NCBI RefSeq assembly: GCF_010500615.1
Contig: NZ_JAAGNX010000002.1
Coordinates: forward strand, 238,990 to 302,989
DNA from: Oceanipulchritudo coccoides
GTDB lineage: Bacteria; Verrucomicrobiota; Verrucomicrobiia; Opitutales; Oceanipulchritudinaceae
DNA: 64,000 bases
Direction of reading: 5' to 3'
The notes beneath the pieces were generated by a model. The model had not been told where the DNA came from, ran no database searches, and saw only the letters and a program-made list of their open reading frames with translations. The translations under genes and the position numbers were made by a program. Numbering within the stretch: position 1 is the first letter of the stretch; the number at the start of each line of letters is the position of its first letter. This document shows, in pieces, positions 24,482 through 42,239 of this stretch.

Positions 24482-24492
24482 GATGGCAATTC

Positions 24493-25170: not shown

Positions 25171-25580
25171 CAGGAATCTTCAGTCGAGATATTTACGGAG
25201 TTAGCACCAGCGAGCTTTGCCTCATCAATGACGCGGACAAGAATCCGGGTCGGAACATTTTCATCCGCCTGAATGATTACCGGCATCTTGGGATCGTCCT
25301 GGACAAGGCGTTTCACAACACTGCGAACCCCGTTTACGCCGATATCACGACCCCCATAAACCACATTGTTGTTGGCGGTGATGGCGATCAGGATACTGTT
25401 CTTCTCCAGTTGGATCTGGGAGGCGGCCTGTGGCTTGGTGACTTCAACTCCCGTTTCTTCAACAAAGACCGTTGTCACGATAAAGAAGATAAGGAGGATA
25501 AAGACCATATCGATCAGAGGAGATATGTTAATATCCTCGCTGGCCCCCCGGTTAGCAGAAAATACGCGTCTACGCTTCAT
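25170..25580 (-). CDS. exbD: Biopolymer transport protein ExbD
   Basis: 136 residues. The single membrane helix contains the essential proton-carrying aspartate Asp24 in [21 protein letters not shown] short periplasmic domain follows ([38 protein letters not shown]). With ExbB it forms the proton-driven motor for TonB. Its ATG overlaps the exbB stop by four bases. Confidence 0.93.
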
Positions 25581-26212: not shown

Positions 26213-26230
26213 TGGTCGGACTCCGACGGA

Positions 26231-27616
26231 TTAGTTTTTGCGGACCAGCCCGTTCACGAAGGCAACGGCCATCCGTTCCATGTTCGCCATGACGCCTTGC
26301 GCGCGACGGTTCAACAGGGCGTGCATGATCAATGAGGGAATGGCCACAATCAGGCCAAATTCAGTTGTCACGAGTGCTTCGGAAATACCACTGGAGAGCT
26401 GCTTGGCATCCCCTGTCCCGAAAATGGTAATCAACTTGAAGGTATTGATCATCCCGGTAACCGTCCCAAGAAGACCCATCAGCGGGGCCGTTGCAGCGGT
26501 TACGGCGATAAAGGGAAGCAACCGTTCAAGCCGGGGCTGGACCTCCAGCATGCGCTCGTACATGACTTCCTCAATCAGCTCCTTGCTTTCCTCGCTGTGC
26601 TCAACGGCATCCACAAGCATTGACTGCGCAGGTCCTTGGACAGCTTTGGCGAGTTTCATCGCCTCATCGCGATTGCCTTCGTTCAGCGCCTTCAAGATGC
26701 CATGCAGGGCTCCTGCACGCGGCATTTTGACGGAGTAAATTTCGTAGACCTTGAAGAGGGCTGTGAGCGTCGCCAAGAGGGCGAAGAACAAAATCGGCCA
26801 GATCCAGATACCCCCTTTTTGAATATGCTCCCAGAGAGTCTCTTCTTGAGCGGCCATGGCCAACGCACTACCCAGGGTTGGGTCGACAGGCAGTTGACCG
26901 CTCCCGGCTGTGATTGTAGCGCTGATTTGATTGTCGAGGTCCGGGCTCAATCCGATGATCGGAGGCAGCAAACCGGCCTTCAGGGCGACTCCGGCCGCAT
27001 CGCTCGAGTCACTCGTATAGTATGTTGTGGGGCCCATCAGGAGGAATTTGCCTTGTTCCACTTCACCATTCGAGACCACCGCCTCGCCCGGAAATATCTG
27101 GCCACCGGAAATACTTTTAAAGCGCTCAATCGAGGTCTGGAGGATGAATATCTGGTCAAGGAGGCGTTTCACCTTGCCCATTTGATCCTCCCCAATGGAG
27201 ACATTTGCCGCTTCCCGGAATTTATCGATTTCATTCGAATACAACTGCTGCTCGGGCAGGGCGATATCGCGCTCAAAGCGCTCCCCAAAATCCGCCACCA
27301 GATTGGCCACGTAATCAAGCTGCTCCTGGCGCTTCTCGACACGCACCTGCAGGGCGTTCAAATCCACTGTGCTGTTGTCCTTGAGGCGCTGTGCGCGCTC
27401 AGCAGCGCGCCGCTTGTCGCGAAGGTCTGCCTTTAGGGCGTTCAGCTCCCTGGCAAGGGGGATCTGCTCATCCTTGATCGATTCCTGCAGATCGGAATAA
27501 CGACTGAGCGCGTCTTCCAGATCGGCCTTAGCCCCCGCTTGGGCTTGGGATAGAGTCGCTCCAAAAACAATAACAGAGGAGAGTAGGAAAGAAATAATAC
27601 TGAATAGGTATTTCAC
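26231..27616 (-). CDS. TtpC-like MotA/TolQ/ExbB protein with periplasmic coiled-coil domain
   Basis: 461 residues in two parts. An N-terminal signal peptide (FSIISFLLSSVIVFGATLS) is followed by a periplasmic region of about 230 residues that begins as a coiled coil (ELNALKADLRDKRRAAERAQ). The C-terminal half is an ExbB channel unit. It has an anchor helix around GIWIWPILFFALLATLTALF, then [20 protein letters not shown] and GISEALVTTEFGLIVAIPSL. This matches TtpC, the extra component required by Vibrio TonB2 systems. The downstream order exbB-exbD-tonB-TPR is also that of the Vibrio type. It lies 40 bp after the DUF3450 gene. Confidence 0.87.
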   Translation of the reverse strand: MKYLFSIISFLLSSVIVFGATLSQAQAGAKADLEDALSRYSDLQESIKDEQIPLARELNALKADLRDKRRAAERAQRLKDNSTVDLNALQVRVEKRQEQLDYVANLVADFGERFERDIALPEQQLYSNEIDKFREAANVSIGEDQMGKVKRLLDQIFILQTSIERFKSISGGQIFPGEAVVSNGEVEQGKFLLMGPTTYYTSDSSDAAGVALKAGLLPPIIGLSPDLDNQISATITAGSGQLPVDPTLGSALAMAAQEETLWEHIQKGGIWIWPILFFALLATLTALFKVYEIYSVKMPRAGALHGILKALNEGNRDEAMKLAKAVQGPAQSMLVDAVEHSEESKELIEEVMYERMLEVQPRLERLLPFIAVTAATAPLMGLLGTVTGMINTFKLITIFGTGDAKQLSSGISEALVTTEFGLIVAIPSLIMHALLNRRAQGVMANMERMAVAFVNGLVRKN

Positions 27617-27656
27617 AAAATGTCCCGGTTTAATGATTAAAGGTAGTGGGGATCCG

Positions 27657-28427
27657 TTAATTTACGGAAACGGGAAGTTCCACATATTTGGCTTGTTGGG
27701 TGCCTCGGTAGATCTCGACGAAATTCCTGGCGGCTGAGACAAGCTCGTCGTCATCCTTCCACTCCCAACCATCGGATCCCATCACACCCACGCCAGCGTG
27801 CTCATTTGCCTGGTCGACGTAATAAGAGGCTCCGAGTCCAAAATAGATGCTCTCGGTCTGGACTGTCCGGCCAGCTTCAAATTCACGAAACCCTTCAACC
27901 ACCGTCACTACCTGGTTGAATTTCTGCACCTGAGTCAAAATTGCCACAATGGGCTGGATGCGTTGACCCACAGACAACTTCGACGCCTTGGGATCCTCGG
28001 GTATGGTTGAAAACAGGGGATTTAACTCCTCTTGGAGCGGTGGTGGCAAAAAGGCCTGCAATCCCTTCATCGCCGTTTCGGCTGCGATCAGGCCTTCCAC
28101 AACCTTGGCTTCAAACTCTTTTACCGCCTTGTCCTGTTCTGTCAGGTCGGCACGGCGTGTCTCAGCAGCGCTGGTGTCCTTCTCCGCGGCCTCGATCAAC
28201 TCCGTTAAGGTCTCAATCTCTTGGGTGTATATAGAGATCAAATTCTCCATTGAGGATTTATTGGCCTCCCACTCCGCCTTGACGTCGCTGATTAAACGCT
28301 CCGTCTCAACCCACTCTTCAAGTGTGTTCACTGTTTCCTCGAGAGGGGACTCCGCCGTTGATGCGGATACCCAGAAAAATGCCCCACTCAACGCCAGAGC
28401 TACTTTTAAAAACCTGTTTACTGCCAT
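27657..28427 (-). CDS. DUF3450-family exported coiled-coil protein
   Basis: 256 residues from ATG 28427; an upstream in-frame start at 28496 would put 23 non-hydrophobic residues before the signal peptide and would lie inside the promoter. A signal peptide (KVALALSGAFFWVSASTAES) precedes a long coiled coil (EWEANKSSMENLISIYTQEI, and on through ETLTELIEAAEKD). A conserved C-terminal domain has QTESIYFGLGASYYVDQANE and AGVGVMGSDGWEW. The DUF3450 assignment is by my recall of this pattern. The family is commonly encoded upstream of ttpC-exbB-exbD-tonB clusters. Its molecular role is unknown; a periplasmic scaffold for the TtpC coiled coil is a guess. Confidence 0.75.
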   Translation of the reverse strand: MAVNRFLKVALALSGAFFWVSASTAESPLEETVNTLEEWVETERLISDVKAEWEANKSSMENLISIYTQEIETLTELIEAAEKDTSAAETRRADLTEQDKAVKEFEAKVVEGLIAAETAMKGLQAFLPPPLQEELNPLFSTIPEDPKASKLSVGQRIQPIVAILTQVQKFNQVVTVVEGFREFEAGRTVQTESIYFGLGASYYVDQANEHAGVGVMGSDGWEWKDDDELVSAARNFVEIYRGTQQAKYVELPVSVN

Positions 28428-28463
28428 GGAATTCCTTTGATTTTCGGTTTGCGAAAGGTGCGA

Positions 28464-28492
28464 AAAATTCCCCCTTCTCCCGACCTTGTCAA
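28464..28492 (-). promoter_or_regulatory. Candidate sigma70 promoter of the TonB2-type operon
   Basis: On the minus strand a perfect -35 box TTGACA (28492-28487) is followed after 17 bp by AATTTT (28469-28464), a weak -10. The DUF3450 ATG at 28427 lies about 30 nt after the expected start site. The rest of the 269-bp divergent gap up to apbE is AT-rich, and I see no clear promoter for apbE or operator palindrome in it. Confidence 0.4.
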
Positions 28493-28696
28493 GCAAGTGT
28501 GAATGTGGGGTTCGCGGGGCAAGAAACCACAGAAAGAAAATCCTTCTTGTGTGTATAAGTAAATCTTGACGAAATTTCCTTTGTGTTTAGACGAGCTAAT
28601 AGACTTTAATTTATCAAATTGTTGAAAAACTTCATCTTGAGGCGATCGCAAGGAGACCCTAAAACGAGCATCGAACCCCTAATAAAACTTTACTGA

Positions 28697-29707
28697 ATGA
28701 AACGTCGTCAATTCATGCTATCGCTTGCAGGATCAGCCGCGTTGGTTGGCTGGGCCGGATGGAAAACCGTATCGGGATCCGGGAAACCGTGGACAAGTGG
28801 ATTGAGCCGCTTAAGCCGAAGCTCATGGGCTCTTGGAACACAAGTTAAGCTGACTGTTTTTCATGGTGACGAAACGGGCGCCAAGGTGGCGCTGGAGGAG
28901 GCATTTGCCGAGTTGGAGCGCGTGGAATCTGTGATGAGCTTGTATCGCTCCGACAGCCAGATCTGCCAACTAAACCGCACCGGGCAACTGGAATCACCAC
29001 ACCCATATCTTGTTGAAGTATTGAAGACCGCCGAGCGGGTTTCAGCCGAGACATCCGGTGCCTTTGATATTACCGTCCAGCCCCTCTACAAATTATATGC
29101 TGAGCATAACGAGCGTGGAATCCGCCCTGGCGATGATGATATCGCCGCTGTTCTGAAACGGGTTGGGTGGAAACGTGTAAAGCTGGGGGATGAGTTTGTC
29201 TCTCTGGAAGGCGAAGAAACAGAAATCACCTTGAACGGAATCGCGCAGGGATTTGCTGCCGATGCGGTGGGAAAAGTTTTGCAGAAGCATGGCATTCAAC
29301 ACGCCCTGATCGACACCGGCGAGGTGAATGCCGTGGGAGGACACGTCGAGCATGACAATTGGAACATCGGGATCAAGCATCCCCGCGAAGAAGGCAGCCT
29401 TCTGGCTCTGGCCCAGCTCAACGGCCGGTGCCTGGCTACCTCGGGGGACTATGAAACCCGCTTTGGTTCCGGTTATGAATTCCATCATTTGCTGGATCCG
29501 CAAACTGGGCGCTCCCCACAGGAATTATCAAGCGTTTCCGTGGTAGCCCCCACTGCGCTGGAGGCCGACGCCCTTTCGACAGCGCTCTTCCTGACCGGAA
29601 TGGACCGCGGGATGCAGCTCATTGAATCCATTCCAGAGGCCGACGCCCTATTTGTTTCAAAGACGGGCAAGGTGGTCAAAACATCCGGATTTCCCATTCA
29701 CAGTTAA
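28697..29707 (+). CDS. apbE: FAD:protein FMN transferase ApbE
   Basis: 336 residues. A twin-arginine-like signal (KRRQFMLSLAGSAALVGWAG) directs export. The family features are ALGTQVKLTVFHGD, EFERVE-like ELERVESVMSLYRSDSQICQ, TSGAFDITVQPLYKLYAEH, LNGIAQGFAADAVGKVLQKH, DTGEVNAVGG and ATSGDYETRF. The metal-ligand tail region is APTALEADALSTALFLTGMD. ApbE attaches FMN to a threonine in the DxxT/S-GAT motif of RnfG and RnfD. Both targets carry that motif here, so ApbE at the head of the cluster is functionally apt. Confidence 0.94.
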   Translation: MKRRQFMLSLAGSAALVGWAGWKTVSGSGKPWTSGLSRLSRSSWALGTQVKLTVFHGDETGAKVALEEAFAELERVESVMSLYRSDSQICQLNRTGQLESPHPYLVEVLKTAERVSAETSGAFDITVQPLYKLYAEHNERGIRPGDDDIAAVLKRVGWKRVKLGDEFVSLEGEETEITLNGIAQGFAADAVGKVLQKHGIQHALIDTGEVNAVGGHVEHDNWNIGIKHPREEGSLLALAQLNGRCLATSGDYETRFGSGYEFHHLLDPQTGRSPQELSSVSVVAPTALEADALSTALFLTGMDRGMQLIESIPEADALFVSKTGKVVKTSGFPIHS

Positions 29708-29736
29708 CCGGTAACATTTTAAGAAAGCCCCCCTAA

Positions 29737-30624
29737 ATGACCGAACTGACCACATACCTCTTGAGTACAGTTATCTTCATGGGGGTTTTGGGGCTTGTTC
29801 TGGCAAGCGTTCTGGCTTTCGCCAACAAGAAGCTGCACGTGCATGAGGATCCCCGGATTGACGAAGTCGAGCAAATGCTCCCCGGGACCAATTGTGGTGC
29901 TTGCGGCAGTCCTGGTTGCCGCGCATTTGCAGAATCCTGCGTATCGGGGAAAGCCAACCCCGGAAGTTGTACCGTTAGCCCGAAGGAGATGACTGAATTC
30001 ATTGGATCCTATCTGGGCGTGGAAGTGGGGAACTCCGAGAAAGTCGTGGCCCGTCTGGCCTGCGCAGGAGGAAACCATGTTGCCAAGATGCGGGCCGAGT
30101 ATGCGGGAATGGGTTCCTGCCGAGCGGCCGTTGCCGCCGGTGGTGGAGGCAAGGCTTGTGCATGGGGCTGCCTGGGGCTCGCTGATTGTGCGGAATCCTG
30201 TGACTTCGATGCCATTCACATGAATCGCTTCGGCCTGCCGATTGTCGACGAAGACAAGTGCGTGGCCTGTAATGACTGTGTTGTGGCCTGCCCTCTCGAT
30301 CTATTTGAGCTCCATCCCGTCAGCCACCGCCTATGGGTCGCCTGTAAAAGCCTTGCCGAAGGCGATGAGGCCCTTGCCGACTGCGAAGTGGCTTGCACGG
30401 GATGTGCCCGGTGCGCCGCGGATGCGCCGGAAGGGCTCATACAGATAAAAAACAATCTGGCCGTTATTGATTACGCCAAAAACAATCTGGCGACCCCGTT
30501 GGCAATCCAGCGCTGCCCGACTGGCGCAATCGTCTGGAATGAAAAAGGCCAGACGCAGAAGGGTTCAGCGGCGAAAAAGATCATCCGCAAGGAACCTCTT
30601 CCAATACAACCCGACCACACCTGA
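29737..30624 (+). CDS. rnfB: Rnf complex subunit RnfB (long, multi-cluster form)
   Basis: 295 residues, against about 190 for the E. coli homologue. An N-terminal membrane helix (STVIFMGVLGLVLASVLAFA) is followed by the Rnf-type cluster domain NCGACGSPGCRAFAESC (Cys53, 56, 61, 68). Ferredoxin-like cysteine groups follow at 141-155 (CAWGCLGLADCAESCD), at 175-185 (CVACNDCVVACP) and at about 216-226 (CEVACTGCARC). RnfB takes electrons from reduced ferredoxin. The next gene in the same direction is not rnfC but a pyruvate:ferredoxin oxidoreductase, which would supply that ferredoxin. Confidence 0.92.
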   Translation: MTELTTYLLSTVIFMGVLGLVLASVLAFANKKLHVHEDPRIDEVEQMLPGTNCGACGSPGCRAFAESCVSGKANPGSCTVSPKEMTEFIGSYLGVEVGNSEKVVARLACAGGNHVAKMRAEYAGMGSCRAAVAAGGGGKACAWGCLGLADCAESCDFDAIHMNRFGLPIVDEDKCVACNDCVVACPLDLFELHPVSHRLWVACKSLAEGDEALADCEVACTGCARCAADAPEGLIQIKNNLAVIDYAKNNLATPLAIQRCPTGAIVWNEKGQTQKGSAAKKIIRKEPLPIQPDHT

Positions 30625-30669
30625 ATTTAGCTCTTTTATACAATATCAACACCAAAAATGTAGTGAATT

Positions 30670-33600
30670 ATGGCTTCTGAAACAAAAAAAGCAAAGTACC
30701 CGGGAATCCCGGTGGCCATGGACGGTAACACCGCTGTCATCATGTGTGAGCGGGAATCAAGCGACGCGGCGGGGGCATACCCGATCACGCCGTCGACCCA
30801 GATGGGTGAATACTGGGCGGAGGAAACCGCCCGGGGCCACATCAATATCTCGGGCCGTCCACTCATCTTTGTGGAACCGGAAGGAGAACACGCTGCAGCC
30901 GGGGTCACCGCCGGGATGTCCATGAGTGGCCTGCGCGCATCCAATTTCTCCTCCGGTCAGGGGATCGCCTACATGCACGAATCCCTGTATGGTGCTGTTG
31001 GTAAGCGCCTTCCCTATATCCTCAACATTGGTTGCCGCGCGATCACCAAGACCACGCTCAATGTGCACGCTGGCCATGACGATTATCACCTGATGGATGA
31101 TACCGGCTTCTTCCAAGTCATGGGTAAAAGTGCCCAGGAGGCAGCCGATTTAAATATCATCTCGCGCAAGATTGCCGAAATCTCCCTCACGCCGGGCGCA
31201 GTCGGCCAGGATGGATTTTTGACGACTCACCTCATTGAGACCCTCACGGTTCCCGAACGGGAACTGATTGAGGAATACCTCGGTCTTCCGGATGACATGA
31301 TCGATACGCCGACGCCGGCCCAGAAGATTCTGTATGGTGAAAAGCGCCGTCGTGTTCCCATCCTCTGGGACGTTGATAACCCGGTTGTTTCAGGCCCGGT
31401 CCAGAATCAGGATGCTTACATGCAGTCCGTAGCGGCGCAAAGGCCTTACTTCTTTGATCACATCAAGGATATCACAGACACCTGCATGGCCGAATTCGGC
31501 GCCTTGACCGGACGGGATTACAAGCGCGTTGCCACCTACAAGTGCGACGATGCTGAATACATCATTGTCGGGATGGGAAGCGTGATTGGGACAGCGGAAG
31601 CGGTTGCCGATTACCTCCGTGAAAAGCGCGGCCTCAAGGTGGGCGTGGTGAACATGACCATGTTCCGGCCATTCCCGGGTGACCTTTTGGGTGGATTGCT
31701 GAAGGGCCGCAAGGGCGTTGCCGTTCTCGAACGGACAGACCAGCCATTGGCGGAGGACTTGCCACTGATCCGCGAAATCCGCGCCACCGTCAGCAAGTGT
31801 ATTGAAAACGGCATGATTGGCAAAGGCGAGGAACTCCCCTACCCGACTTACGCCACATACAAGAAGCCGGGAGACGCACCGGTCCTGTATTCCGGTTGCT
31901 TTGGCATGGGAAGCCGCGACCTGCAGCCCGAAGGGGTTGTTGGGGCAGTCGAAAACATGCTGCCGAAGGGCAAAAAGAAACGCTTCTATTACTTGTCCAT
32001 CGACTTCCTGCACGATAAGCCGTCTTCACCGAAGAACGAGATCTACCAGCAGAAGCTCGAGGAGTATTACCCGAACGTCCGCGAACTGGCCGTCAAGGGC
32101 AGTGAAAACCCGAACCTCCTTCCAGACGGGGCGGTCACAGTGCGGATGCACTCTGTCGGTGGCTGGGGAGCGATCACGACCGGTAAGAACCTGGCCATCA
32201 CGCTCTACGACCTGCTCGGATACGACATCAAGGCCAATCCGAAATACGGTTCCGAGAAAAAGGGCCAGCCGACGACTTACTACCTCTCGGCAGCACCGGA
32301 ACCCATCCGCATCAACTGCGAATACTACTTTGTCGACGCGGTGCTTTCACCGGATCCCAATGTCTTTAGCCACTCAAATCCATTGTTCGGGCTGATCAAG
32401 GGCGGTGTCTTCATCATCCAAAGCGATCTTGAAACTCCGCAAGATGTCTGGGAATCCTTCCCTCCTGAGGCACGTAAGTACATTATTGATAACGACATCA
32501 AGGTTTGTTACCTCGATGCCTTCAAGATTGCCCGCGAGGAAGCCTCTGACGTGGAGCTCCAGTTCCGTATGCAGGGAATTGCGTTCCAGGGTGCCTTTTT
32601 CGCCGGCTCCACCTTGATGGACAAGGCCAACCTGAACGAGGAATCCCTCTTCAAGGCAATCCGCGACCAGGTAACGAAGAAGTTCGGCAGCAAGGGCGCA
32701 CGCGTTGTCGAGGACAACATGCGCGTTGTCCGTCGTGGCTTCGACGAAATCACAGTTATTGATCCGAAGACGGTTGCCGCTCCGAGCGGTGGACAGGTCG
32801 AGAAGAAGACCAACCTCCCCATTATGCTGAAGCGCATGATGCCGAGTGATGACCCGAAGACCGACATCCATCGGTTCTGGGAACAGACCGGTAGCTTCTA
32901 CCTGGGTGGTCGTCCGAACGACAACCTGGCCGATCCGTTCAATGCCATGAGCTTGATCCCCGCGAACACCGGGCTTTACCGCGACATGACGCAGATCCGC
33001 TTCAACCACCCGGTTTGGAATCCTGAAAAATGTACCGCCTGCAGCGACTGTTTCACGATTTGTCCGGACAGCGCCATCCCGGGATTGGCCGTGCCGATTG
33101 CCTCCGCCTTCGAAACGACCATCAAACGCGTCCAGAAGGCCGGCCATGAAGTGAAGCTTCTCCCGAAAGCGGTTCGCACCGTGGAAAAGAAGCTCCGTAC
33201 CTCCGCCAAACCCGGCGACGCTCCGAGCATAGACACGCGTCCGCTGCTTGAAAAGGCCATCAACGAGACGATTGCGGAAGCAAACGGGGATGCCGAAGCC
33301 CTCAAGGAAGAATTCAAATGGTTCCGCGAGGAAATGGGCGATTTCAAGTTTGCCCTGACCAAGCCATACTTCGACCAGCGTGAAAAGAGCCAGGCCGGCA
33401 CAGGCGGGCTCTACGCCATCACCATCAATCCGTACACCTGTAAGGGCTGTATGCTCTGTGTGGATGTCTGTGATGATGACGCGCTCACGGTCATGACGCA
33501 GACAACGGATTCAGTCACCAGCCTCAAAAAGGAATGGGATTACTGGCTGGACCTGCCCACCACCCCACCGGACTTCATCCGGATCGACGACATCGACGAG

Positions 33601-35598
33601 AAGATCGGCGCCCTTGAGACAATGCTCATGGACAAGTCCGTCTACTCATCAATGGCCTGTGGTGACGGTGCCTGTACCGGTTGTGGCGAGAAGACTGTCC
33701 TGCACATCTTCACCAGCACGATTACCGCGCTGATGCAGCGCCGGGTAAAGAAGCACATTGAATACCTTGATGAACTCATCGCGAAGCTTGAGCAGCATCT
33801 GAAAAACAAGCTGGCTGACACGGTTGACATCAGCGACCTGGCCGCCGTCAAGGCTGCTGTCTCGTCGCACAAGGACAAGGACCTGAAGCTCTCCGAGCTC
33901 GCACAGGAACTGGACAAGGGCAAAGCGGGTTCACCGCTTGATCAGGATTGGCTGGCGTGGATCAGTGATCTCCTGGCCAAGCTGAAGGATCTGAAGTGGC
34001 GCTATGTTGAAGGTCCCACGAAGAATGGTCGGGCAAGCCTCGGCTTCCAGAATGCCACCGGATGTTCTTCTGTCTACGGGTCTTCTTATCCGTACAATCC
34101 GTATCCGTTCCCGTGGTCCAATCACCTCTTCCAGGATGCACCTTCCGTCTCCCTCGGTCTTTTTGAAGGCCACATGCGGAAAATGGCTGATGGCTTCAAG
34201 GCCATCCGCCTTGCTGAAGGCGAACTTGAAGGCAAGTCCTACACGGAACAGGAAGCATCCCTCACATTCTTCAACTGGAAGCAATTCACTGATGAGGAAT
34301 ACCTGATGAGCCCGCCGGTTGTCGCCGTGGGCGGTGACGGAGCGATGTTTGACATTGGCTTCCAGAATGTTTCCCGCGCCCTTATGGCGGGTCGTCCATT
34401 GAAGATCTTCGTTCTCGACACGCAGGTTTACTCGAACACGGGTGGACAAGCCTGTACCTCCGGCTTTATCGGCCAGGTCTCCGACATGGCACCGTATGGA
34501 GCCGCATGGAAGGGCAAGGAAGAAAGCCGCAAGGAAATGAGCCTCATCGGTGCGGCGCACCGTACAGCCTTCATTTTCCAGGGGAACGTCTCCAATTACA
34601 CGCACCTGATCGAAGGTTTCATCGACGGCCTGAACACTCGCCGTCCGGCCATGTTCAATATCTACGCGGTCTGTCAACCCGAGCACGGTGTCTCGGACGA
34701 TGCCACGTACATTCGCAGCAAGATGGCCCTTGAATCACGGGCTTACCCGGTCATGCGCTTCGATCCTGATGCGGGCGACTCATGGGAAGACTGCTTCGAT
34801 CTGGAAGGTAACCCGTCCCTGGAAAGCGACTGGCCTGTCTACAACCTTGAATACGAGGATGATGACGGCAACAAGCAGACCATGGAACTACCGATGACCT
34901 TCGCGGACTTTGCGGTTCAGGAAGCGCGCTTCCGGAAGCACTTCCGCAAGGCCCCTCAGGACACATGGAACGAGAACATGGTTCCGATGGCTGAGTTCCT
35001 CGAGCTCGACCAGGAAGAACGCGAAGGGCAGTTCCCATACGTATGGGCAGTGGACAAGAAGAACCGCCTCATGCGGGTCCTTGTTGCTGAAGAAATGGTC
35101 CGTTCCTGTGAAGAACGCCTCGGCTTCTGGCAAACCCTCAAGGGATTGGCCGGACTGACCAAGAAAATCGATCCCGAGCAAATTGCCTCCCAGGTCCGCA
35201 GCGAGACAGCCCAAAAGCTGGCTTCCGGCCTCATGGCAATGCTGGCCGGAAACGGCTCTCCAGCACAGTTGGTGGATATGCCGGTAGCAACCGCAGCAGC
35301 CCCAGCAGCGGAGGGTGCCCCAACAAATGGATCCGCTTCCGGCGGGGCCTTTGAAGCGGCTTGGATTGACCAGTCAGAGTGTACTTCCTGCGATGAGTGT
35401 GTGAACATCAACCCGAAGATCTTCGAGTACGACGGCAACAAGAAGGCCTTCGTCAAGGATGCTCGGGGTGGACCCTTCAAGGATATTGTCCGCGCGGCGG
35501 AAAAGTGCACCGGTCGGTGCATTCATCCCGGCACGCCGGCTGATCCCAGTGAAAAGGGCGTGGATAAACTGATCAAGCGGGCGGAGAAATTCCAGTAA
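30670..35598 (+). CDS. nifJ: Pyruvate:ferredoxin (flavodoxin) oxidoreductase, extended form with C-terminal ferredoxin domain
   Basis: 1642 residues, whereas usual single-chain PFOR is about 1170-1200. It oxidatively decarboxylates pyruvate to acetyl-CoA and reduces ferredoxin. In order: the N-terminal pyrimidine-type domain (AGAYPITPSTQMGEYWAEE; VEPEGEHAAAGVTAGMSMSG), then the gamma domain (SVGGWGAITTGKNLAITLYD). A two-cluster ferredoxin domain follows (CTACSDCFTICP near 787, CKGCMLCVDVC near 923), and then the TPP domain (GDGACTGCGEKTVL near 997, VAVGGDGAMFDIGFQNVSRA near 1220). The two cluster motifs are about 136 residues apart, and the TPP domain holds a helical insertion (~1030-1110). 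After an Ala/Gly-rich linker, residues ~1565-1625 form an extra ferredoxin-like domain (CTSCDECVNINPKIFEYDG, CTGRC). It sits between rnfB and rnfC. Confidence 0.93.
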   Translation: MASETKKAKYPGIPVAMDGNTAVIMCERESSDAAGAYPITPSTQMGEYWAEETARGHINISGRPLIFVEPEGEHAAAGVTAGMSMSGLRASNFSSGQGIAYMHESLYGAVGKRLPYILNIGCRAITKTTLNVHAGHDDYHLMDDTGFFQVMGKSAQEAADLNIISRKIAEISLTPGAVGQDGFLTTHLIETLTVPERELIEEYLGLPDDMIDTPTPAQKILYGEKRRRVPILWDVDNPVVSGPVQNQDAYMQSVAAQRPYFFDHIKDITDTCMAEFGALTGRDYKRVATYKCDDAEYIIVGMGSVIGTAEAVADYLREKRGLKVGVVNMTMFRPFPGDLLGGLLKGRKGVAVLERTDQPLAEDLPLIREIRATVSKCIENGMIGKGEELPYPTYATYKKPGDAPVLYSGCFGMGSRDLQPEGVVGAVENMLPKGKKKRFYYLSIDFLHDKPSSPKNEIYQQKLEEYYPNVRELAVKGSENPNLLPDGAVTVRMHSVGGWGAITTGKNLAITLYDLLGYDIKANPKYGSEKKGQPTTYYLSAAPEPIRINCEYYFVDAVLSPDPNVFSHSNPLFGLIKGGVFIIQSDLETPQDVWESFPPEARKYIIDNDIKVCYLDAFKIAREEASDVELQFRMQGIAFQGAFFAGSTLMDKANLNEESLFKAIRDQVTKKFGSKGARVVEDNMRVVRRGFDEITVIDPKTVAAPSGGQVEKKTNLPIMLKRMMPSDDPKTDIHRFWEQTGSFYLGGRPNDNLADPFNAMSLIPANTGLYRDMTQIRFNHPVWNPEKCTACSDCFTICPDSAIPGLAVPIASAFETTIKRVQKAGHEVKLLPKAVRTVEKKLRTSAKPGDAPSIDTRPLLEKAINETIAEANGDAEALKEEFKWFREEMGDFKFALTKPYFDQREKSQAGTGGLYAITINPYTCKGCMLCVDVCDDDALTVMTQTTDSVTSLKKEWDYWLDLPTTPPDFIRIDDIDEKIGALETMLMDKSVYSSMACGDGACTGCGEKTVLHIFTSTITALMQRRVKKHIEYLDELIAKLEQHLKNKLADTVDISDLAAVKAAVSSHKDKDLKLSELAQELDKGKAGSPLDQDWLAWISDLLAKLKDLKWRYVEGPTKNGRASLGFQNATGCSSVYGSSYPYNPYPFPWSNHLFQDAPSVSLGLFEGHMRKMADGFKAIRLAEGELEGKSYTEQEASLTFFNWKQFTDEEYLMSPPVVAVGGDGAMFDIGFQNVSRALMAGRPLKIFVLDTQVYSNTGGQACTSGFIGQVSDMAPYGAAWKGKEESRKEMSLIGAAHRTAFIFQGNVSNYTHLIEGFIDGLNTRRPAMFNIYAVCQPEHGVSDDATYIRSKMALESRAYPVMRFDPDAGDSWEDCFDLEGNPSLESDWPVYNLEYEDDDGNKQTMELPMTFADFAVQEARFRKHFRKAPQDTWNENMVPMAEFLELDQEEREGQFPYVWAVDKKNRLMRVLVAEEMVRSCEERLGFWQTLKGLAGLTKKIDPEQIASQVRSETAQKLASGLMAMLAGNGSPAQLVDMPVATAAAPAAEGAPTNGSASGGAFEAAWIDQSECTSCDECVNINPKIFEYDGNKKAFVKDARGGPFKDIVRAAEKCTGRCIHPGTPADPSEKGVDKLIKRAEKFQ

Positions 35599-35654
35599 AC
35601 CGGAATTGGATGCTCGAATGAACGTGATTACACACTGTCAGGAAATCCACTGAA

Positions 35655-37025
35655 ATGATGCACGGCCTGAAAAGTCTCTTTGATCCGGCGCATTGGATGC
35701 GGAGTACATTCTCGCACGGGGTTCACCCGGAAGAGAACAAGCATTACACCGCAAACAAGCCGATCCGGCGACTGCCTTTCCCTCCGGAGTTGGTGATCCC
35801 GCTGTCACAACATGCGGGAGCACCCTCCGAGATGGTGGTCCATCCGGGACAGGAGGTTCTTCGTGGACAGTTGATCGCCAAGGCAGGCGGATTTGTCTCG
35901 GTTCCCCAGCATGCTCCCGCCACGGGTGTCATCAAGCGGGTTGAGCTGATGCCGACTTCCAAGGGGCCCAGGACACCCTCGGTTATTCTCGAGGTTTATC
36001 CGGGCGACAGTCAGGAAGTGCGTTACTTTGAACCGCGGGATGTGAATGCCATGTCCGCGAAGGAGATTGCCCAGGCCGTTCAAGATACTGGTTTGGTCGG
36101 TCTTGGCGGGGCGGCTTTCCCAACCCATGTTAAGCTTTCCCCACCAAAGGAACACAAGGTCCATACCGTCCTGATCAACGGGTGCGAATGCGAGCCGTTC
36201 CTCACCACCGATCACCGCATCATGGTGGAGCAGGCGAAGGATCTCGTTTCAGGGACCCAGATCTTCATGCGGGCCCTGGGGGCCGAGAAGGCCATTATCG
36301 GGACGGAAGAAAACAAGTTGGACGCGGTGGAAGCGATTGAAAAAGTCCTTCCTGCGGACGGATCCATCACCGTTAAGGCGGTCCAGACAAAGTATCCGCA
36401 AGGGGCGGAGAAGATGTTGGCTAAGGCCCTCATGGATATTGAGATTCCCTCCGGTAATTTCCCTTCATCCGTTGGATTGGCGGTCTTTAATGTCTCCTCA
36501 ACAGCCCAGCTGGGCCAACTGCTTCCGCGCAGCCAGGGAATCATTGAACGGGTCGTGACAATCACGGGACCGGGGGTGGATCGCCCGGGCAACTACATTG
36601 TCCCCATCGGGACGCCTTTACGCTTTATCCTTGATCAGCTGGGTTTCAGCGGTACCGCGCAACATCTGATTATGGGTGGGCCCATGATGGGTGGGACAGT
36701 CGCCTCTTTGGATGTCCCGATTACAAAGGGTTGCGGCGGGGTCCTTGTCTTGACCGAACAGGACATGCGCGGAATTCAGCCAAACTCTTATCCCTGTATC
36801 AGCTGCGCCAAATGCCTGGAAGCCTGCCCGATGCATTTGAATCCGTCCCAGCTCGGCAAACTCGCCTACAAGCACCGCTACGAGGAAATGGCGGAATCCT
36901 TCCACCTGAATGATTGCTTCGAGTGTGGCTGCTGCAGCTTTGTCTGCCCTTCCAACATCCCTCTAGTGCAGTATTTCCGAATCGCCAAGTCCAGTAACCG
37001 GCAAGCCCCGAAGAAAGCGTCATGA
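35655..37025 (+). CDS. rnfC: Rnf complex subunit RnfC
   Basis: 456 residues. RnfC carries the NADH site and two [4Fe-4S] clusters at the membrane's cytosolic face. Visible are FSHGVHPEENKHYTANKPIR, the Gly-rich nucleotide region GLVGLGGAAFPTHVKLSPP, NGCECEPFLTTDHRIMVEQA, and GGPMMGGTVASLDVPITKG. The cluster motifs are CISCAKCLEACPMHLNP near residue 381 and CFECGCCSFVCPSNIPL near 421. It lacks the long Ala-rich C-terminal repeats of the E. coli protein. Its stop overlaps the rnfD ATG by four bases. Confidence 0.95.
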   Translation: MMHGLKSLFDPAHWMRSTFSHGVHPEENKHYTANKPIRRLPFPPELVIPLSQHAGAPSEMVVHPGQEVLRGQLIAKAGGFVSVPQHAPATGVIKRVELMPTSKGPRTPSVILEVYPGDSQEVRYFEPRDVNAMSAKEIAQAVQDTGLVGLGGAAFPTHVKLSPPKEHKVHTVLINGCECEPFLTTDHRIMVEQAKDLVSGTQIFMRALGAEKAIIGTEENKLDAVEAIEKVLPADGSITVKAVQTKYPQGAEKMLAKALMDIEIPSGNFPSSVGLAVFNVSSTAQLGQLLPRSQGIIERVVTITGPGVDRPGNYIVPIGTPLRFILDQLGFSGTAQHLIMGGPMMGGTVASLDVPITKGCGGVLVLTEQDMRGIQPNSYPCISCAKCLEACPMHLNPSQLGKLAYKHRYEEMAESFHLNDCFECGCCSFVCPSNIPLVQYFRIAKSSNRQAPKKAS

Positions 37026-38077
37026 GTGAATCAGCCGCCAATGTAATTTTGCGGACGTCCCCGCACTTCCGCTCCCACAACCGGGTGGATACCATCATGC
37101 GGAATGTTGTCTACGCGCTCCTGCCGGTCTGCGCCTTTTCCGTCTACCAGTTTGGCATCAGCGTGTTGGCTCTTTTGATCACCTGCACCGCTACTTGCCT
37201 CTTGACCGAGCATTTTGTGTGCAAACTGTCCGGCAAGCCCTCCACAACAAATGACTGGAGTGTTGCGATCACCGGGCTTCTTCTCGGCCTGATCCTTCCC
37301 CCCGGCTTTCCGCTCTGGATGGCTGCTGTGGCCGCCATTTTTGGCGTCGGTATTGGAAAAATGTTCTTTGGCGGGCTTGGTTTCAACATCATGAACCCGG
37401 CTCTTGTCGGGCGTGCCTTTGCCCAGGCGGCCTTCACTGTTCCGGCCACCACATGGACACCGTTCATGGCGGAAAACCGCTTTACTGACTTTATTCCAAG
37501 CACCCTCACGATGCCATTCATGAAGCCGGTCCCGGTTGCCGATTGGATTGCTTCCGTGAGCCCGGATGGTTGGACCGGGGCGACCCCCCTCGCCCTGATG
37601 AAATTTGATCAGATTTCCACCGAGCCTGTGCGGCTCATGCTGGGAACCACCGCCGGTTCTGCTGGTGAGACCTCCGCGTTATTGATCCTGATCTGCGGGC
37701 TCTATCTTGTCGCGCGGAGAATGATGGACTGGCGGATCACCTTCAGCGTTCTCCTTACCGCCGGGGCGACCTCCGGGATCTTTTATATGATCAACCCCGC
37801 TGTTTACCCGGATCCAATTTTCACCATCTTTTCCGGAGGCCTGATGCTGGGCGCCGTCTTCATGGCGACGGACATGGTCTCCTCGCCGGTCACTCCGCTG
37901 GGAATCTGGATCTACGGTGCCTTGATCGGTTTTATCACTGTCATTATCCGCCTCTTTGGCGGGCTGAATGAGGGCGTCATGTATGCCATTCTTTTGGCAA
38001 ATGCCTGCTCCCCGTTGATTAGTTCCTTCACACAACCCCGCATCTACGGGGCTCTTGCCAAGAAAGGTGCCGCATGA
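37022..38077 (+). CDS. rnfD: Rnf complex membrane subunit RnfD
   Basis: 351 residues with about nine hydrophobic helices, of the NqrB/RnfD family. The FMN-attachment motif is DGWTGATPLALM, giving Thr188 as the flavinylated residue. Other family segments are FFGGLGFNIMNPALVGRAFA and FMATDMVSSPVTPLGIWIYG. Start and stop codons overlap rnfC and rnfG by four bases each (ATGA), showing tight translational coupling. Confidence 0.94.
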   Translation: MSESAANVILRTSPHFRSHNRVDTIMRNVVYALLPVCAFSVYQFGISVLALLITCTATCLLTEHFVCKLSGKPSTTNDWSVAITGLLLGLILPPGFPLWMAAVAAIFGVGIGKMFFGGLGFNIMNPALVGRAFAQAAFTVPATTWTPFMAENRFTDFIPSTLTMPFMKPVPVADWIASVSPDGWTGATPLALMKFDQISTEPVRLMLGTTAGSAGETSALLILICGLYLVARRMMDWRITFSVLLTAGATSGIFYMINPAVYPDPIFTIFSGGLMLGAVFMATDMVSSPVTPLGIWIYGALIGFITVIIRLFGGLNEGVMYAILLANACSPLISSFTQPRIYGALAKKGAA

Positions 38078-38760
38078 GCGAGGAAACCACACCTCCATCC
38101 GCTTCGCCTAAAAGCAGCTCGCTGATCCTCACCTTGGGGATTATTGCCATGCTTTCGGGCCTCATGGTTGTTCTCACTTTTCAACTGACAAAGCCGCGCA
38201 TCGCCCTCAACAAACAGCGCGCGCTTGAAAAGGCGGTCTTCACGGTCCTGCCGGAAGCCACTGTCAGGAAAAACTTCTTTCTCGATGAGTCGGGCCTCGC
38301 CGCCCTTCCCGATGAGGCCTTTGCGGATGCCAACGTATTTGCCGGATATGATGACGCAGGTAAGCTCGCTGGCCTGGCAATGGAAGCCTCCGCCCGAGGG
38401 TATCAGGATGTCGTGACAATCCTCTACGGCTACTCGGTGGATAATGAAGCTGTCATTGGAATAACCGTCCTCCAAAGCACGGAAACGCCCGGACTGGGTG
38501 ACAAAGTGGAAACAGATCCGGATTTTCTGGCCAACTTCGAAAAGCTGGACGCTCGCCTCAACAACACCGGTACGGCCATGGCGAATGAAATTGTCACGGT
38601 CAAGAACGGCAAGAAAACCGATCCCTGGCAAATTGATGGAATTTCCGGAGCAACCGTCACCTCAACCGCCATCGGGACCGGATTGCGGAGGAGCACCAAC
38701 GAGATGCTTCCATTGCTCGCCAAATACAAGTCATCTCTTCCAAGGAGCCTGAGCGAATGA
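38074..38760 (+). CDS. rnfG: Rnf complex subunit RnfG (flavoprotein)
   Basis: 228 residues: one N-terminal membrane helix (LILTLGIIAMLSGLMVVLTF) and a periplasmic FMN-binding domain. The ApbE target motif is DGISGATVTSTAIG, with Thr194 as the likely FMN site. The family segment ETPGLGDKVETDPDFLANF precedes it. RnfG passes electrons between the membrane 2Fe-2S centre and RnfD. It is coupled to rnfD by a 4-bp overlap. Confidence 0.93.
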   Translation: MSEETTPPSASPKSSSLILTLGIIAMLSGLMVVLTFQLTKPRIALNKQRALEKAVFTVLPEATVRKNFFLDESGLAALPDEAFADANVFAGYDDAGKLAGLAMEASARGYQDVVTILYGYSVDNEAVIGITVLQSTETPGLGDKVETDPDFLANFEKLDARLNNTGTAMANEIVTVKNGKKTDPWQIDGISGATVTSTAIGTGLRRSTNEMLPLLAKYKSSLPRSLSE

Positions 38761-38785
38761 GCCCGTATTTGAAAGGATTCAAGTC

Positions 38786-39445
38786 ATGGTAAAAGACCCG
38801 AGAATTCCCGATCCCTTGAGCTGGAAGACATTCAGCCAGGGTTTGTGGAATGAAAACCCGGTGTTCGTCATGCTTCTCGGGCTGTGCCCGGTGCTGGCAG
38901 TGACAAATACTTCCATGAATGCCTTGGCAATGGGACTGGCGACTACCTTTGTTTTGCTGGCCTCCGGGATTCTGGTCTCCCTTCTGCGGAAGATCATCCC
39001 GAAACAGGTCCGGATTGCCTCCTACATTATCATCATCGCCACCTTTGTGACGATTGCCGACTACGCCATCCAGGCCATCAGCCTGGACCTCTACAGGGCC
39101 CTTGGTGCTTTCATCCAGTTGATTGTCGTTAACTGCATCATCCTTGGACGGGCGGAGGCCTACGCCTCCAAGAACAACGTGGTCAATGCGGCCGTCAACG
39201 CCCTTGGAATGGGTGTCGGGTTTACGATTGCGCTGTTATGTCTTGGCATCGTCCGGGAAGTGCTGGGTAGCGGCGCAATCTTCGGAATAGACCTTTTTGG
39301 AACCAACTTCCAGCCATGGGCCATCTTTGTCCTGCCTCCGGGGGGATTCTTCGTCCTGGCCTTCTGGTTGTTCCTTTTCTCCGTTGTCAAAAAGCGCAAA
39401 ACCCAGCGCGCAACCATCGAGGAGGACATCGCCAATGCAGCCTGA
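38786..39445 (+). CDS. rnfE: Rnf complex membrane subunit RnfE
   Basis: 219 residues, six predicted helices. The two cysteines that help hold the intramembrane [2Fe-2S] centre are in LLGLCPVLAVTNT (Cys34) and VVNCIILGRAEA (Cys117). The family sequence RIASYIIIIATFVTIADYAI is present. An AAGGATT ribosome-binding site precedes the ATG, 25 bp after rnfG. The rnfA start codon lies 11 bp inside its 3' end. Confidence 0.94.
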   Translation: MVKDPRIPDPLSWKTFSQGLWNENPVFVMLLGLCPVLAVTNTSMNALAMGLATTFVLLASGILVSLLRKIIPKQVRIASYIIIIATFVTIADYAIQAISLDLYRALGAFIQLIVVNCIILGRAEAYASKNNVVNAAVNALGMGVGFTIALLCLGIVREVLGSGAIFGIDLFGTNFQPWAIFVLPPGGFFVLAFWLFLFSVVKKRKTQRATIEEDIANAA

Positions 39446-40016
39446 TTCATTAACCTTTATTTTTCTCAACGCATTTATCATCAACAACTTCGTGCTGGCG
39501 ATGTTCCTTGGCCTATGCCCTTTTCTGGGTGTCTCAGGCAAGTTGAAAACCGCCTGGAACATGGGGCTCGCGGTCATCTTTGTCATGTTCGTGAGCTCAA
39601 ACTGCGCCTACCTGATCAACAAGATACTCGTTGCCTATAATCTGGAGTTTCTTCGGCTGATCAGCTATATTGCAGTCATTGCTTCCTCTGTTCAGCTCGT
39701 TGAGATGGCCGTCAAGAAATTCAGTCCCGCCCTGTTCCGGACCCTCGGGATCTTCCTTCCCCTGATCACGACGAACTGTGCCATTTTGGGACTGGCCTTG
39801 TTTCAAACAAACCGCGGCTACAACCTTCCGCAATGTCTTGCCTTCAGCGTAGGCGCTGGAATGGGGTTCACGCTGGCCCTGATGCTCATGGCCGGCTTAC
39901 GGGAAAAACTGGAGCTGGCGGACGTGCCGGACGTCAGTATGGGGGCCGCCCTCAGCCTGACAATTGGTGGTCTGCTTTCACTCGCCTTCATGGGCTTTGC
40001 CGGACTGGGAGGATGA
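39435..40016 (+). CDS. rnfA: Rnf complex membrane subunit RnfA
   Basis: 193 residues from ATG 39435, which overlaps the rnfE end by 11 bp. Six helices are predicted, with the paired cysteines Cys28 (FLGLCPFLG) and Cys115 (TTNCAILGLALF) that complete the [2Fe-2S] site with RnfE. The open frame extends further upstream over rnfE, but that extension encodes non-hydrophobic, unconserved residues and is rejected. A GMGFTLALMLMAGLREKLEL segment matches the family. Confidence 0.94.
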   Translation: MQPDSLTFIFLNAFIINNFVLAMFLGLCPFLGVSGKLKTAWNMGLAVIFVMFVSSNCAYLINKILVAYNLEFLRLISYIAVIASSVQLVEMAVKKFSPALFRTLGIFLPLITTNCAILGLALFQTNRGYNLPQCLAFSVGAGMGFTLALMLMAGLREKLELADVPDVSMGAALSLTIGGLLSLAFMGFAGLGG

Positions 40017-40023
40017 ACCTGCG

Positions 40024-40248
40024 ATGATCGTTACATACTTGATTGCCATGCTGATAATCCTCGGACTTTTGTCCGGCTGGGTTGGCGTGCAGCATTTGTC
40101 GCGGTCTTTCAATGCGCGCCATCCCGAATTGAGCCTGACCACGGAAGAAGAAACCGCCTGTGGCATGTTCTGCTTTTGCAAAAACGGCAACAAGTGCCCC
40201 CGGAAGAAATCCCCGGTACCCAAGAAGGATAACTTACCCATCCACTGA
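40024..40248 (+). CDS. Small cysteine-rich membrane protein, NqrM-like (DUF539-like)
   Basis: 74 residues, starting 8 bp after the rnfA stop. One N-terminal helix (VTYLIAMLIILGLLSGWVGV) is followed by a short tail with four cysteines at 46, 50, 52 and 58 (TACGMFCFCKNGNKCPRKK). This layout of one helix plus a short Cys cluster resembles NqrM, the factor that delivers iron for the membrane 2Fe-2S centre in the related Nqr complex. RnfA/RnfE hold the equivalent centre, so an assembly role fits. The similarity is by pattern only; a direct electron-transfer role is possible too. Confidence 0.6.
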   Translation: MIVTYLIAMLIILGLLSGWVGVQHLSRSFNARHPELSLTTEEETACGMFCFCKNGNKCPRKKSPVPKKDNLPIH

Positions 40249-40280
40249 AATTTAAATTCAAAAACCAGGAGAAGAAAATT

Positions 40281-41141
40281 ATGAACCTTACTGAATATGA
40301 TATCAGCCGTCCATATAAGGCGACGGTCGTTAAATCAGAGCGTATCACGGATGAAAGCACGGACGAAGTCCGGCACATCACATTAAATGTCTCGGATGCC
40401 ACTTTCCACTATCTGGAAGGACAAAGCGTCGGGGTTCTTGTCCCGGGTCCGCATCAGTTTGGTAATGAAACCCACATGCGCCTCTACTCCATCGCCAATG
40501 CGCGCCAGGGCGAGGAACAGAACATGTCGGAAATTTCCCTCTGTGTCCGGCGTTGCTTCTACATAGATGAAGTCAGCGGTGAACGCTACCCAGGCGTGGC
40601 CTCGAATTTCCTTTGTGACCGCGTTCCCGGCGATCAAGTTGAATTGGCCGGTCCCTACGGCCGTCACTTCATGCCGCCGCGCGACAAGACTTGCAATATT
40701 CTCATGATTGGAATCGGGACGGGCATTGCTCCGTTCCGCGCATTCCTGAAACACGTCTATGAGGAGCGTAAGGAATGGACCGGTAAGGTTCGCCTCTTCT
40801 ATGGTGCCAAGACCGGTATGGACCTGCTCTACATGAACGACAAGAACGGGGACCTTGCCAATTACTACGACAAGGAAACCTTCAAGGCGATCGAAGCATT
40901 GAGCCCACGGCCGCATGCGGATGCCCCGGAGGAAATTGATCGGACACTGGTTGAAAACAAGGATGAAGTCTGGGAGCTTGTGAAAGATCCAAAGACATAC
41001 GTCTACGTCTCCGGCCTCTCCCGCCTTGAGGAAACTCTCGACAAGACCCTCGCCGAAATGGCTGGGTCCGCGGAAGCATGGGGCGAGATGAAAAAGCAGA
41101 TGGCGGCACAGGGTCGCTGGGCCACGCTCTTCTACGAGTAA
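40281..41141 (+). CDS. Plant-type ferredoxin--NADP(+) reductase
   Basis: 286 residues. The FAD-binding barrel has MRLYSIANARQG (residues 66-77) and GVASNFLCDRVPGDQVELAG. The NADP domain has MIGIGTGIAPFRAFLKHVYE around 142-160, KVRLFYGAKTGMDLLY, and YVYVSGLSRLEETLDK. The final aromatic that stacks on the flavin is in WATLFYE. It exchanges electrons between ferredoxin and NADP(H). An AGGAGAAG ribosome-binding site lies before the ATG. Its place at the end of the rnf-PFOR gene set suggests a second outlet for PFOR electrons, to NADPH for biosynthesis. Confidence 0.88.
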   Translation: MNLTEYDISRPYKATVVKSERITDESTDEVRHITLNVSDATFHYLEGQSVGVLVPGPHQFGNETHMRLYSIANARQGEEQNMSEISLCVRRCFYIDEVSGERYPGVASNFLCDRVPGDQVELAGPYGRHFMPPRDKTCNILMIGIGTGIAPFRAFLKHVYEERKEWTGKVRLFYGAKTGMDLLYMNDKNGDLANYYDKETFKAIEALSPRPHADAPEEIDRTLVENKDEVWELVKDPKTYVYVSGLSRLEETLDKTLAEMAGSAEAWGEMKKQMAAQGRWATLFYE

Positions 41142-41258
41142 TTGGCAGATTGCCCTGCATCCTTTAAATTTCGGCACTCTCTACCTGCGCTTGATTTTCA
41201 TATCGCCAAAGGGCACCGGGTAACGCACAATAAGCTTACCCCTAACCCCTAAGGCCAT

Positions 41259-42239
41259 ATGAATCTAAAAACGCGTTATCTCGGATTTGAACTGTCCAAC
41301 CCTTTTCTGGTGGGGGCTTCTCCCCTCGTCTATGATTTGGATACGGTCAAGCGTCTCGAGGATGCCGGGGCGGCCGCTGTTGTCATGCACTCCCTCTTTG
41401 AGGAGCAAATTGTACGTGATAATATCCGCGGGTTTCCACACTTGGACAAATCAAGAGTGGGTATCTACCCGGAGTCTCGGCACTTTCCCCTTCATCCTGA
41501 CGCTTATCTGGACCATCTCCAAAAGCTGAAACAAACAGTTAAGCTTCCCATCGTTGCCAGTTTGAATGGCGTCCATGTCGGCACATGGGTTGAGTACGCA
41601 AAACTGATCCAGGAGGCCGGTGCGGATGCATTGGAATTGAATCTGTATTTTACCCCCCGCAGCGACAGCGACCCAAGCAGCGAGATTGAGAAAACCGCTC
41701 TCAACATTGTCAGTACCGTGAAGGAAAACCTCTCCCTCCCGTTGGCCGTGAAAATTGCACCGTTCTACACGGGGATACCAAGGTTTGTTCAGCGACTGGA
41801 AGAAGCAGGCGCGCAGGCTGCCGTTCTCTTCAACAGCTTTTTCCAACCAGACATCGATATTGAAACGATGACCTACAAGGAGAACTTTTCCCTCTCGGAA
41901 CCCCATGCCCTACTATTGCGTACCCGCTGGATCGCCACCCTGCATGGTCGGGTTGGCCTGGACCTCAGCCTGAGCGGTGGGATTGATTCACCGGAAGATG
42001 CCGTAAAGGGCCTCATGGCCGGAGCAACAAGTATTCAGGTCGTCTCCTGCCTTTTGAAAAAGGGACCGGAATATCTAAGTGAATTCATTGAGGATTTCAG
42101 CAATTGGATGGAGCGACATGACTTCGAGTCATTGGATCAGCTGCGCGGCATCCTGAGCTTTGCCCAGAGTAGCAATACGGAGGCAATGGCCCGGGCAGGA
42201 TATCTGCACATGCTCCAAGCGTGGAAACCGGATGCCTAG
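41259..42239 (+). CDS. Dihydroorotate dehydrogenase-like flavoprotein
   Basis: 326-residue FMN TIM-barrel protein. Typical segments are RYLGFELSNPFLVGASPLVY, LPIVASLNGVHVGTWVEYAK, AGADALELNLYF, PLAVKIAPFY, LDLSLSGGIDSPEDAVKGLM and GATSIQVVSCLLKKGPEYL. True PyrD enzymes usually have a catalytic Ser or Cys in an N-C/S-P-x-G context that I do not find here. This subgroup is often annotated as DHOD-like and, as far as I know, often neighbours nifJ in other phyla. The function is unknown; a redox partner to PFOR is possible. Its stop codon shares CTAG with the convergent AEC transporter gene. Confidence 0.8.
   Translation: MNLKTRYLGFELSNPFLVGASPLVYDLDTVKRLEDAGAAAVVMHSLFEEQIVRDNIRGFPHLDKSRVGIYPESRHFPLHPDAYLDHLQKLKQTVKLPIVASLNGVHVGTWVEYAKLIQEAGADALELNLYFTPRSDSDPSSEIEKTALNIVSTVKENLSLPLAVKIAPFYTGIPRFVQRLEEAGAQAAVLFNSFFQPDIDIETMTYKENFSLSEPHALLLRTRWIATLHGRVGLDLSLSGGIDSPEDAVKGLMAGATSIQVVSCLLKKGPEYLSEFIEDFSNWMERHDFESLDQLRGILSFAQSSNTEAMARAGYLHMLQAWKPDA

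Follow-up and report, generated by a model that had tools for sequence, protein, structure and literature searches.

A 64,000-nucleotide stretch of Oceanipulchritudo coccoides (Verrucomicrobiota; contig NZ_JAAGNX010000002.1, positions 238,990 to 302,989), hereafter the window, carries a gene for a long pyruvate:ferredoxin oxidoreductase (PFOR) embedded in an rnf operon, between rnfB and rnfC. We consider it somewhat better than an even bet that these genes encode a dedicated PFOR-Rnf module for the ion-coupled interconversion of pyruvate and acetyl-CoA, in which a tethered ferredoxin would link PFOR to RnfB. The gene order is conserved, and PFOR is co-inherited with a distinct clade of Rnf. 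Because the gene block is kept together in at least nine phyla, PFOR and Rnf probably function as one unit. Both Rnf and PFOR are familiar systems, and that metabolism pairs them is established. Apparently new are the fixed cassette, a family of long ferredoxin-tethered PFORs and an Rnf clade of its own, for which we could not find a description; the literature search turned up no paper that places PFOR within an rnf operon, which is weak evidence, most subscription journals lying outside its coverage.

Genome contigs were scanned for relatives of the window PFOR. At least 579 were found, and the best 80 (L050-L129) were analyzed, so that the rates given here describe close relatives. These 80 came from Verrucomicrobiota, Kiritimatiellota, Pseudomonadota, Acidobacteriota, Hydrogenedentota, Calditrichota, Bacteroidota, and Myxococcota; with Gemmatimonadota added, the order rnfB-PFOR-rnfCDGEA is present in at least nine phyla. 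The rnfB gene was located directly upstream of PFOR in 62 of the 72 loci with enough flank, and after FNR in five further loci, all from Bacteroidota. Directly downstream of PFOR, rnfC was observed in 62 of 65 testable loci, and two others had it slightly farther off. FNR and the NqrM-like gene were each found downstream in 32 of the 49 clusters with long flanks, and apbE also preceded rnfB in L050, L051, L052, L123, and L124. Plasmid records of Persicobacter and Gemmatirosa held versions of this PFOR (59% and 51% identity, respectively) with rnf adjoining. Among evenly sampled genomes, Rnf-linked PFOR was detected in 10 of 289 from the window's phylum and in 15 of 274 from the class of Thiocapsa, in the latter with rnf adjacent nearly always where the flank allowed. 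The recurrence of the gene order across phyla rules out chance adjacency or an assembly artefact.

The first-pass annotation of this DNA had taken the placement of PFOR between rnfB and rnfC for an unusual arrangement. With at least 579 PFOR relatives, and with nearly all of the best 80 showing the gene order, this no longer holds. It had also named, as a result that would count against it, an order both widespread and already described; a wide spread was found, an earlier description was not. The linkage of PFOR to Rnf itself held up: it is conserved, and PFOR is inherited together with a distinct clade of Rnf, findings that fit the proposed co-expression and a functional unit. A separate observation concerns a Calditrichales locus (L090, WGCN01000087.1) with tandem rnf clusters, the first of which opens, at the edge of the locus, with part of a PFOR and an rnfC; the contig carries two PFOR-type rnfB genes.

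The operon occupies positions 28697-42239 of the window and contains eleven plus-strand genes in the order apbE-rnfB-PFOR-rnfC-rnfD-rnfG-rnfE-rnfA-NqrM-like-FNR-DHOD-like. The strand, the limits, and all genes listed by the first-pass annotation were as described, except that it had counted ten. Intergenic gaps range from -11 to +56 bp across the operon, with the exception of 117 bp ahead of the DHOD-like gene, and the genes bordering the operon on either side are on the opposite strand. Terminator-like or promoter-like signals inside the operon were no more numerous than in shuffled sequences. The features are as follows.

28697..29707, plus strand: apbE, FAD:protein FMN transferase, 336 amino acids (Pfam ApbE, E=6e-74).
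29737..30624, plus strand: rnfB, 295 amino acids, PFOR-linked subfamily with the C-terminal tail CPTGAIVW...KKIxRK (TIGR01944, 89.9 bits against a cut-off of 68.7).
30670..35598, plus strand: long PFOR, 1642 amino acids (Pfam POR_N, PFOR_II, POR, Fer4, and Fer4_13; matches to PFORs in the PDB).
35272..35595, plus strand: part of PFOR, the C-terminal ferredoxin with its tail (residues ~1535-1642) and the last part of an A/G/S/P-rich tether.
35655..37025, plus strand: rnfC, NADH/FMN and Fe-S subunit, 456 amino acids (TIGR01945, 490 bits against 246).
37022..38077, plus strand: rnfD, membrane FMN subunit with a TGATPLA motif (TIGR01946, 298 against 207 bits).
38074..38760, plus strand: rnfG, FMN-binding subunit with an SGATVT flavinylation motif (FMN_bind; TIGR01947, 99.2 against a cut-off of 102).
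38786..39445, plus strand: rnfE, membrane subunit (TIGR01948, 235 against 213 bits).
39435..40016, plus strand: rnfA, membrane subunit (TIGR01943, 231 against 229 bits).
40024..40248, plus strand: NqrM-like small membrane protein, 74 amino acids, with a CxxxCxC...C tail (assigned by layout and by homologues at the equivalent site).
40281..41141, plus strand: FNR, plant/PetH-type flavoprotein reductase (best PDB match Synechococcus FNR, E=5e-49).
41259..42239, plus strand: DHOD-like flavoprotein, PRK07565 family (NF005741, 370 against 303 bits).

The window PFOR is ~440 amino acids longer than a standard PFOR (1642 compared with 1171-1231 in solved PFORs). The first-pass annotation had overlooked both this extra length and the ferredoxin end, and had weighed only the direction of pyruvate oxidation. 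The protein comprises a full PFOR core with three [4Fe-4S] sites, to which helical insertions are added, and ends in a single-cluster [4Fe-4S] ferredoxin on a flexible tether. All 16 cluster cysteines were invariant in 87 of 87 family PFORs, including those of the C-terminal ferredoxin (domain-V clusters at 788-798 and 924-934; proximal cluster at 1002, 1005, 1132, and 1335; ferredoxin at 1571, 1574, 1577, and 1613). T40, E73, R123, and N1256 were invariant in the same 87 and align with the thiamine pyrophosphate (TPP)/pyruvate site; the roles of these positions are presumably those in known PFOR structures, from which we take them. Residues 770-1642 were modeled with AlphaFold2 from an alignment with 34 relatives (mean predicted local distance difference test [pLDDT] score, 77). 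The model predicts a helical insertion between the domain-V motifs and a long helical hairpin ahead of the TPP domain, a confident ferredoxin domain (pLDDT 80-90), and a disordered tether (<50). The modeled C-terminal domain superposed on Desulfovibrio africanus ferredoxin I with a root mean square deviation of 0.7 and a template modeling score of 0.86 by target length, and the modeled remainder matched PFOR structures. Across the family, the tether measured 33-97 residues from L1521 to the first ferredoxin cysteine.

As for the Rnf subunits, A, B, C, D, and E scored above their TIGR cut-offs; RnfG fell just below (99.2 against 102) and has the FMN_bind domain and flavinylation motif. In full-length alignments with 7zc6 and 9eri, the Fe-S ligands of RnfB and RnfC and the flavin/NADH domain of RnfC were intact, with the exception of one RnfB cluster, and RnfC aligned over its full length with the NADH-linked RnfC of Clostridium tetanomorphum and Acetobacterium woodii. 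The exception is that RnfB in the 74 aligned cassettes lacks exactly the four cysteines of one [4Fe-4S] cluster kept in these two species. As a control, 20 non-PFOR RnfBs of the same phylum group were compared, and the loss was general among them as well. The idea that the PFOR ferredoxin replaces this RnfB cluster was therefore withdrawn, and the missing cluster is no evidence for PFOR wiring. In the window's phylum, the RnfBs of the rnfABCDGE clusters L144-L163 have lost one [4Fe-4S] cluster of the last ferredoxin module, compared with clostridial RnfB. The host genome also contains a lone RnfC/PduS/PrdC-like protein of 457 amino acids (G000:C2:205104-206474; L214:5105-6475), next to which no further rnf genes were seen.

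PFOR and its Rnf partners have been inherited together. Within the window's phylum, nine RnfB relatives at ≥60% identity were each found in a genome with a long Rnf-linked PFOR, whereas the remaining relatives, at ≤42% identity, were in genomes without this PFOR or were second copies. Other rnf clusters examined in this phylum were mostly rnfABCDGE, without PFOR. PFOR-linked RnfC formed one clade (support 100/99, present in every bootstrap tree), separate from other PVC Rnf and from the RnfC of C. tetanomorphum, A. woodii, and Azotobacter vinelandii; ordinary Bacteroidota Rnf was left out of this tree, so the sister of the clade is unsettled. Mantel correlations between PFOR distances and partner distances were 0.89 for RnfC, 0.81 for FNR, 0.79 for RnfD, and 0.78 for RnfB (0 of 999 permutations as high in each case), values that partly reflect shared species history. 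The core motif of the RnfB tail, CPTGAIVW plus a basic segment, was present in 72 of 78 cassette RnfBs and in 0 of 20 other PVC RnfBs.

In the mechanism that we propose, electrons would pass between pyruvate/acetyl-CoA and the three internal [4Fe-4S] clusters of the long PFOR, with the tethered C-terminal ferredoxin shuttling them to or from RnfB. The flavins and clusters of Rnf would then relay electrons to NAD(H) at RnfC as the complex translocates Na+ or H+. Overall, the module would catalyze pyruvate + CoA + NAD+ <-> acetyl-CoA + CO2 + NADH, reversibly and with ion coupling. ApbE would attach the flavins, the NqrM-like protein may aid insertion of the membrane Fe-S center, and FNR could serve as a second point at which electrons enter from, or leave to, NAD(P)H. 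More tentatively, and at less than even confidence, we suggest that PFOR and Rnf form a physical supercomplex acting as an ion-pumping pyruvate:NAD+ oxidoreductase (a reversible pyruvate synthase), in which the ferredoxin swings between PFOR and RnfB and low-potential electrons are kept from the soluble pool, in at least nine phyla that include PDH-bearing aerobes.

Several points weigh against this proposal. The long PFOR of L126 adjoins no rnf, the sole such locus among the best 80. Two genomes (G067 and G201) retain PFOR-rnfCDGEA-nqrM-like-FNR with the PFOR-type rnfB on a separate contig (L164, L165; L166, L167), and physical contact between PFOR and RnfB is something that we infer. A tethered ferredoxin also occurs in two-subunit 2-oxoacid oxidoreductases without rnf nearby (L045 and L048; G046, G004), and the assignment of pyruvate as substrate of the long PFOR appeals to conserved residues. 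Regarding G067 and G201, their arrangement suggests that the module can persist when rnfB moves elsewhere.

The direction of the reaction has to be considered next. In the host genome, which is 3.5 Mb in size and 99% complete, genes for aa3 and cbb3 oxidases, PDH E1, OGDH E1, and three NuoF are present, and no match to isocitrate lyase was found. The host is a respiring aerobe, and because it has these oxidases and PDH, PFOR should be dispensable for aerobic pyruvate oxidation. The module might instead run in reverse, the ion gradient and NADH generating low-potential electrons with which PFOR carboxylates acetyl-CoA for assimilation of acetate, fatty acids, or polyhydroxyalkanoate (PHA), a possibility to which we give a little less than an even chance. 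Besides the dispensability of PFOR in air and the missing isocitrate lyase match, this would fit the many carriers that are purple sulfur, thiotrophic, or Rhodocyclales bacteria, and a report that "Ca. Kentron" symbionts, in which Rnf is present, use PFOR reductively during PHA mobilization (PMC6593406). By contrast, in cyanobacteria that possess PDH, PFOR works oxidatively in air when NADH is high (PMC8887894), and the ethylmalonyl-CoA pathway could stand in for isocitrate lyase. Ion-coupled pyruvate oxidation at high NADH or low oxygen and Rnf-driven pyruvate synthesis appear about equally likely, and we describe the unit as reversible.

An alternative to the dedicated module is that PFOR and Rnf are only co-regulated, sharing an operon through ferredoxin as a soluble carrier, with no dedicated docking and with the fused ferredoxin serving several partners. 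The two-subunit enzymes mentioned above are in line with this: at L045:3586-8952 and L048:8203-13351, distant from rnf, the second subunit (817-834 amino acids) ends in a tethered CxxCxxC ferredoxin like that of the long PFOR. Since similar tethered ferredoxins occur away from rnf, the fusion alone is no proof of Rnf wiring. In addition, the cassette FNR could draw on the same ferredoxin domain, and in some lineages rnfB has changed its place in the cluster or left it. On the other hand, the C-terminal ferredoxin was absent from all seven related long PFORs located away from rnf in the window's phylum (37% identity to the window PFOR), and genome G109 holds both kinds, a rnf-linked long PFOR with the ferredoxin and an unlinked one without. 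Within the long-PFOR family, the sequences thus appear to tie the tethered ferredoxin to partnership with Rnf. The specificity of the RnfB tail for PFOR linkage and the lack of any free ferredoxin gene found in the window's cassette also argue against co-regulation only, which we consider unlikely. The sister long-PFOR family (L046, L047, L215-L219; 37% identity) has neither a ferredoxin domain nor an obvious redox partner gene alongside.

That the long PFOR uses another 2-oxoacid in place of pyruvate, for example 2-oxobutyrate, 2-oxoglutarate, or a branched-chain oxoacid, is improbable: although its score against the NCBIfam equivalog TIGR02176 (NifJ), 383.7 bits, is below the 911-bit cut-off, which places it as related but outside that equivalog, and its identity to ordinary PFORs is only ~30%, its closest solved relatives are PFORs over most of its length, and the YPITPST motif, R123, and the asparagine of SNTGG, which align with the PFOR pyruvate and TPP site, are invariant in 87 of 87 family members.

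We also evaluated the accessory genes of the cassette. The ApbE family attaches flavin to RnfD and RnfG, and the window ApbE fits, as judged from their motifs, flavinylation of RnfD (TGATPLA) and RnfG (SGATVT). The small membrane protein had been proposed as an NqrM-like assembly factor. Only its layout, with a single membrane segment and a tail rich in Cys, supports the likeness to NqrM; the protein had no Pfam match at E≤10, and three homologues had no match to NqrM (DUF539), so identification as NqrM by profile was rejected. For FNR, the fold is supported and the best PDB match makes it PetH-like, but the proposed exit to NADPH gained no support from alignment: the cassette FNRs aligned lack the K/R-x-Y part of the S-R ... 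K/R-x-Y motif for the NADP 2'-phosphate in PetH and mostly have SPRP...L there. NADPH output is consequently unproven. The DHOD-like gene, which had been counted among the linked genes, was not found in the other cassettes examined, and 13 of 21 non-window copies of its homologues in relatives lie ≤1 kb from an ordinary PFOR gene. It was therefore rejected as a core part of the mechanism and is a generic PFOR companion outside the cassette core. Upstream of the operon, on the opposite strand (window 23108-28496), genes for a TPR protein, TonB, ExbD, ExbB, a MotA/ExbB-like protein, and a DUF3450 protein form a cluster that looks like a TonB2-type energy-transducing system.

If the unit operates as proposed, it would give cells an alternative to PDH in which energy that PDH dissipates as heat is conserved as an ion gradient, or else a pyruvate synthase powered by the pump and used to assimilate acetate. 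It would also illustrate how bacteria exposed to oxygen prevent strongly reducing electrons from reaching soluble ferredoxin. The module can be tested directly, since it commonly occurs in lineages that can be cultured (Thiocapsa, Allochromatium, Ectothiorhodospira, Algoriphagus, and Persicobacter).

The cassette can be compared with four known systems. It shares with Na+-NQR, whose operons carry NqrM and ApbE (PMC12174285), an accessory set of ApbE, a small Cys-rich membrane protein, and an FNR-family gene; unlike Na+-NQR, its subunits score as Rnf, RnfB is kept, and its FNR is PetH-like rather than NqrF. The rnf-free long PFORs of Verrucomicrobiota (G023, G047, G109, G141, G204, G277, and G326) have ~37% identity to the window PFOR, a length of ~1560-1660 amino acids, and the same core, but no C-terminal ferredoxin and no rnf alongside. 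Homodimeric PFOR/NifJ (D. africanus 1b0p and Moorella 6cin) agrees with the window PFOR in domain order, in having three [4Fe-4S] sites, and in its TPP/pyruvate residues, whereas the window PFOR differs in its length, helical insertions, tethered ferredoxin, and low identity to ordinary PFORs. Finally, the Rnf complex (rnfABCDGE, rnfCDGEAB, or rnfBCDGEA) has the same six subunits, flavinylation motifs, membrane cysteines, and NADH-type RnfC; the cassette is set apart from it by a distinct RnfC clade, a special RnfB tail, PFOR between rnfB and rnfC, and the NqrM-like and FNR genes downstream.

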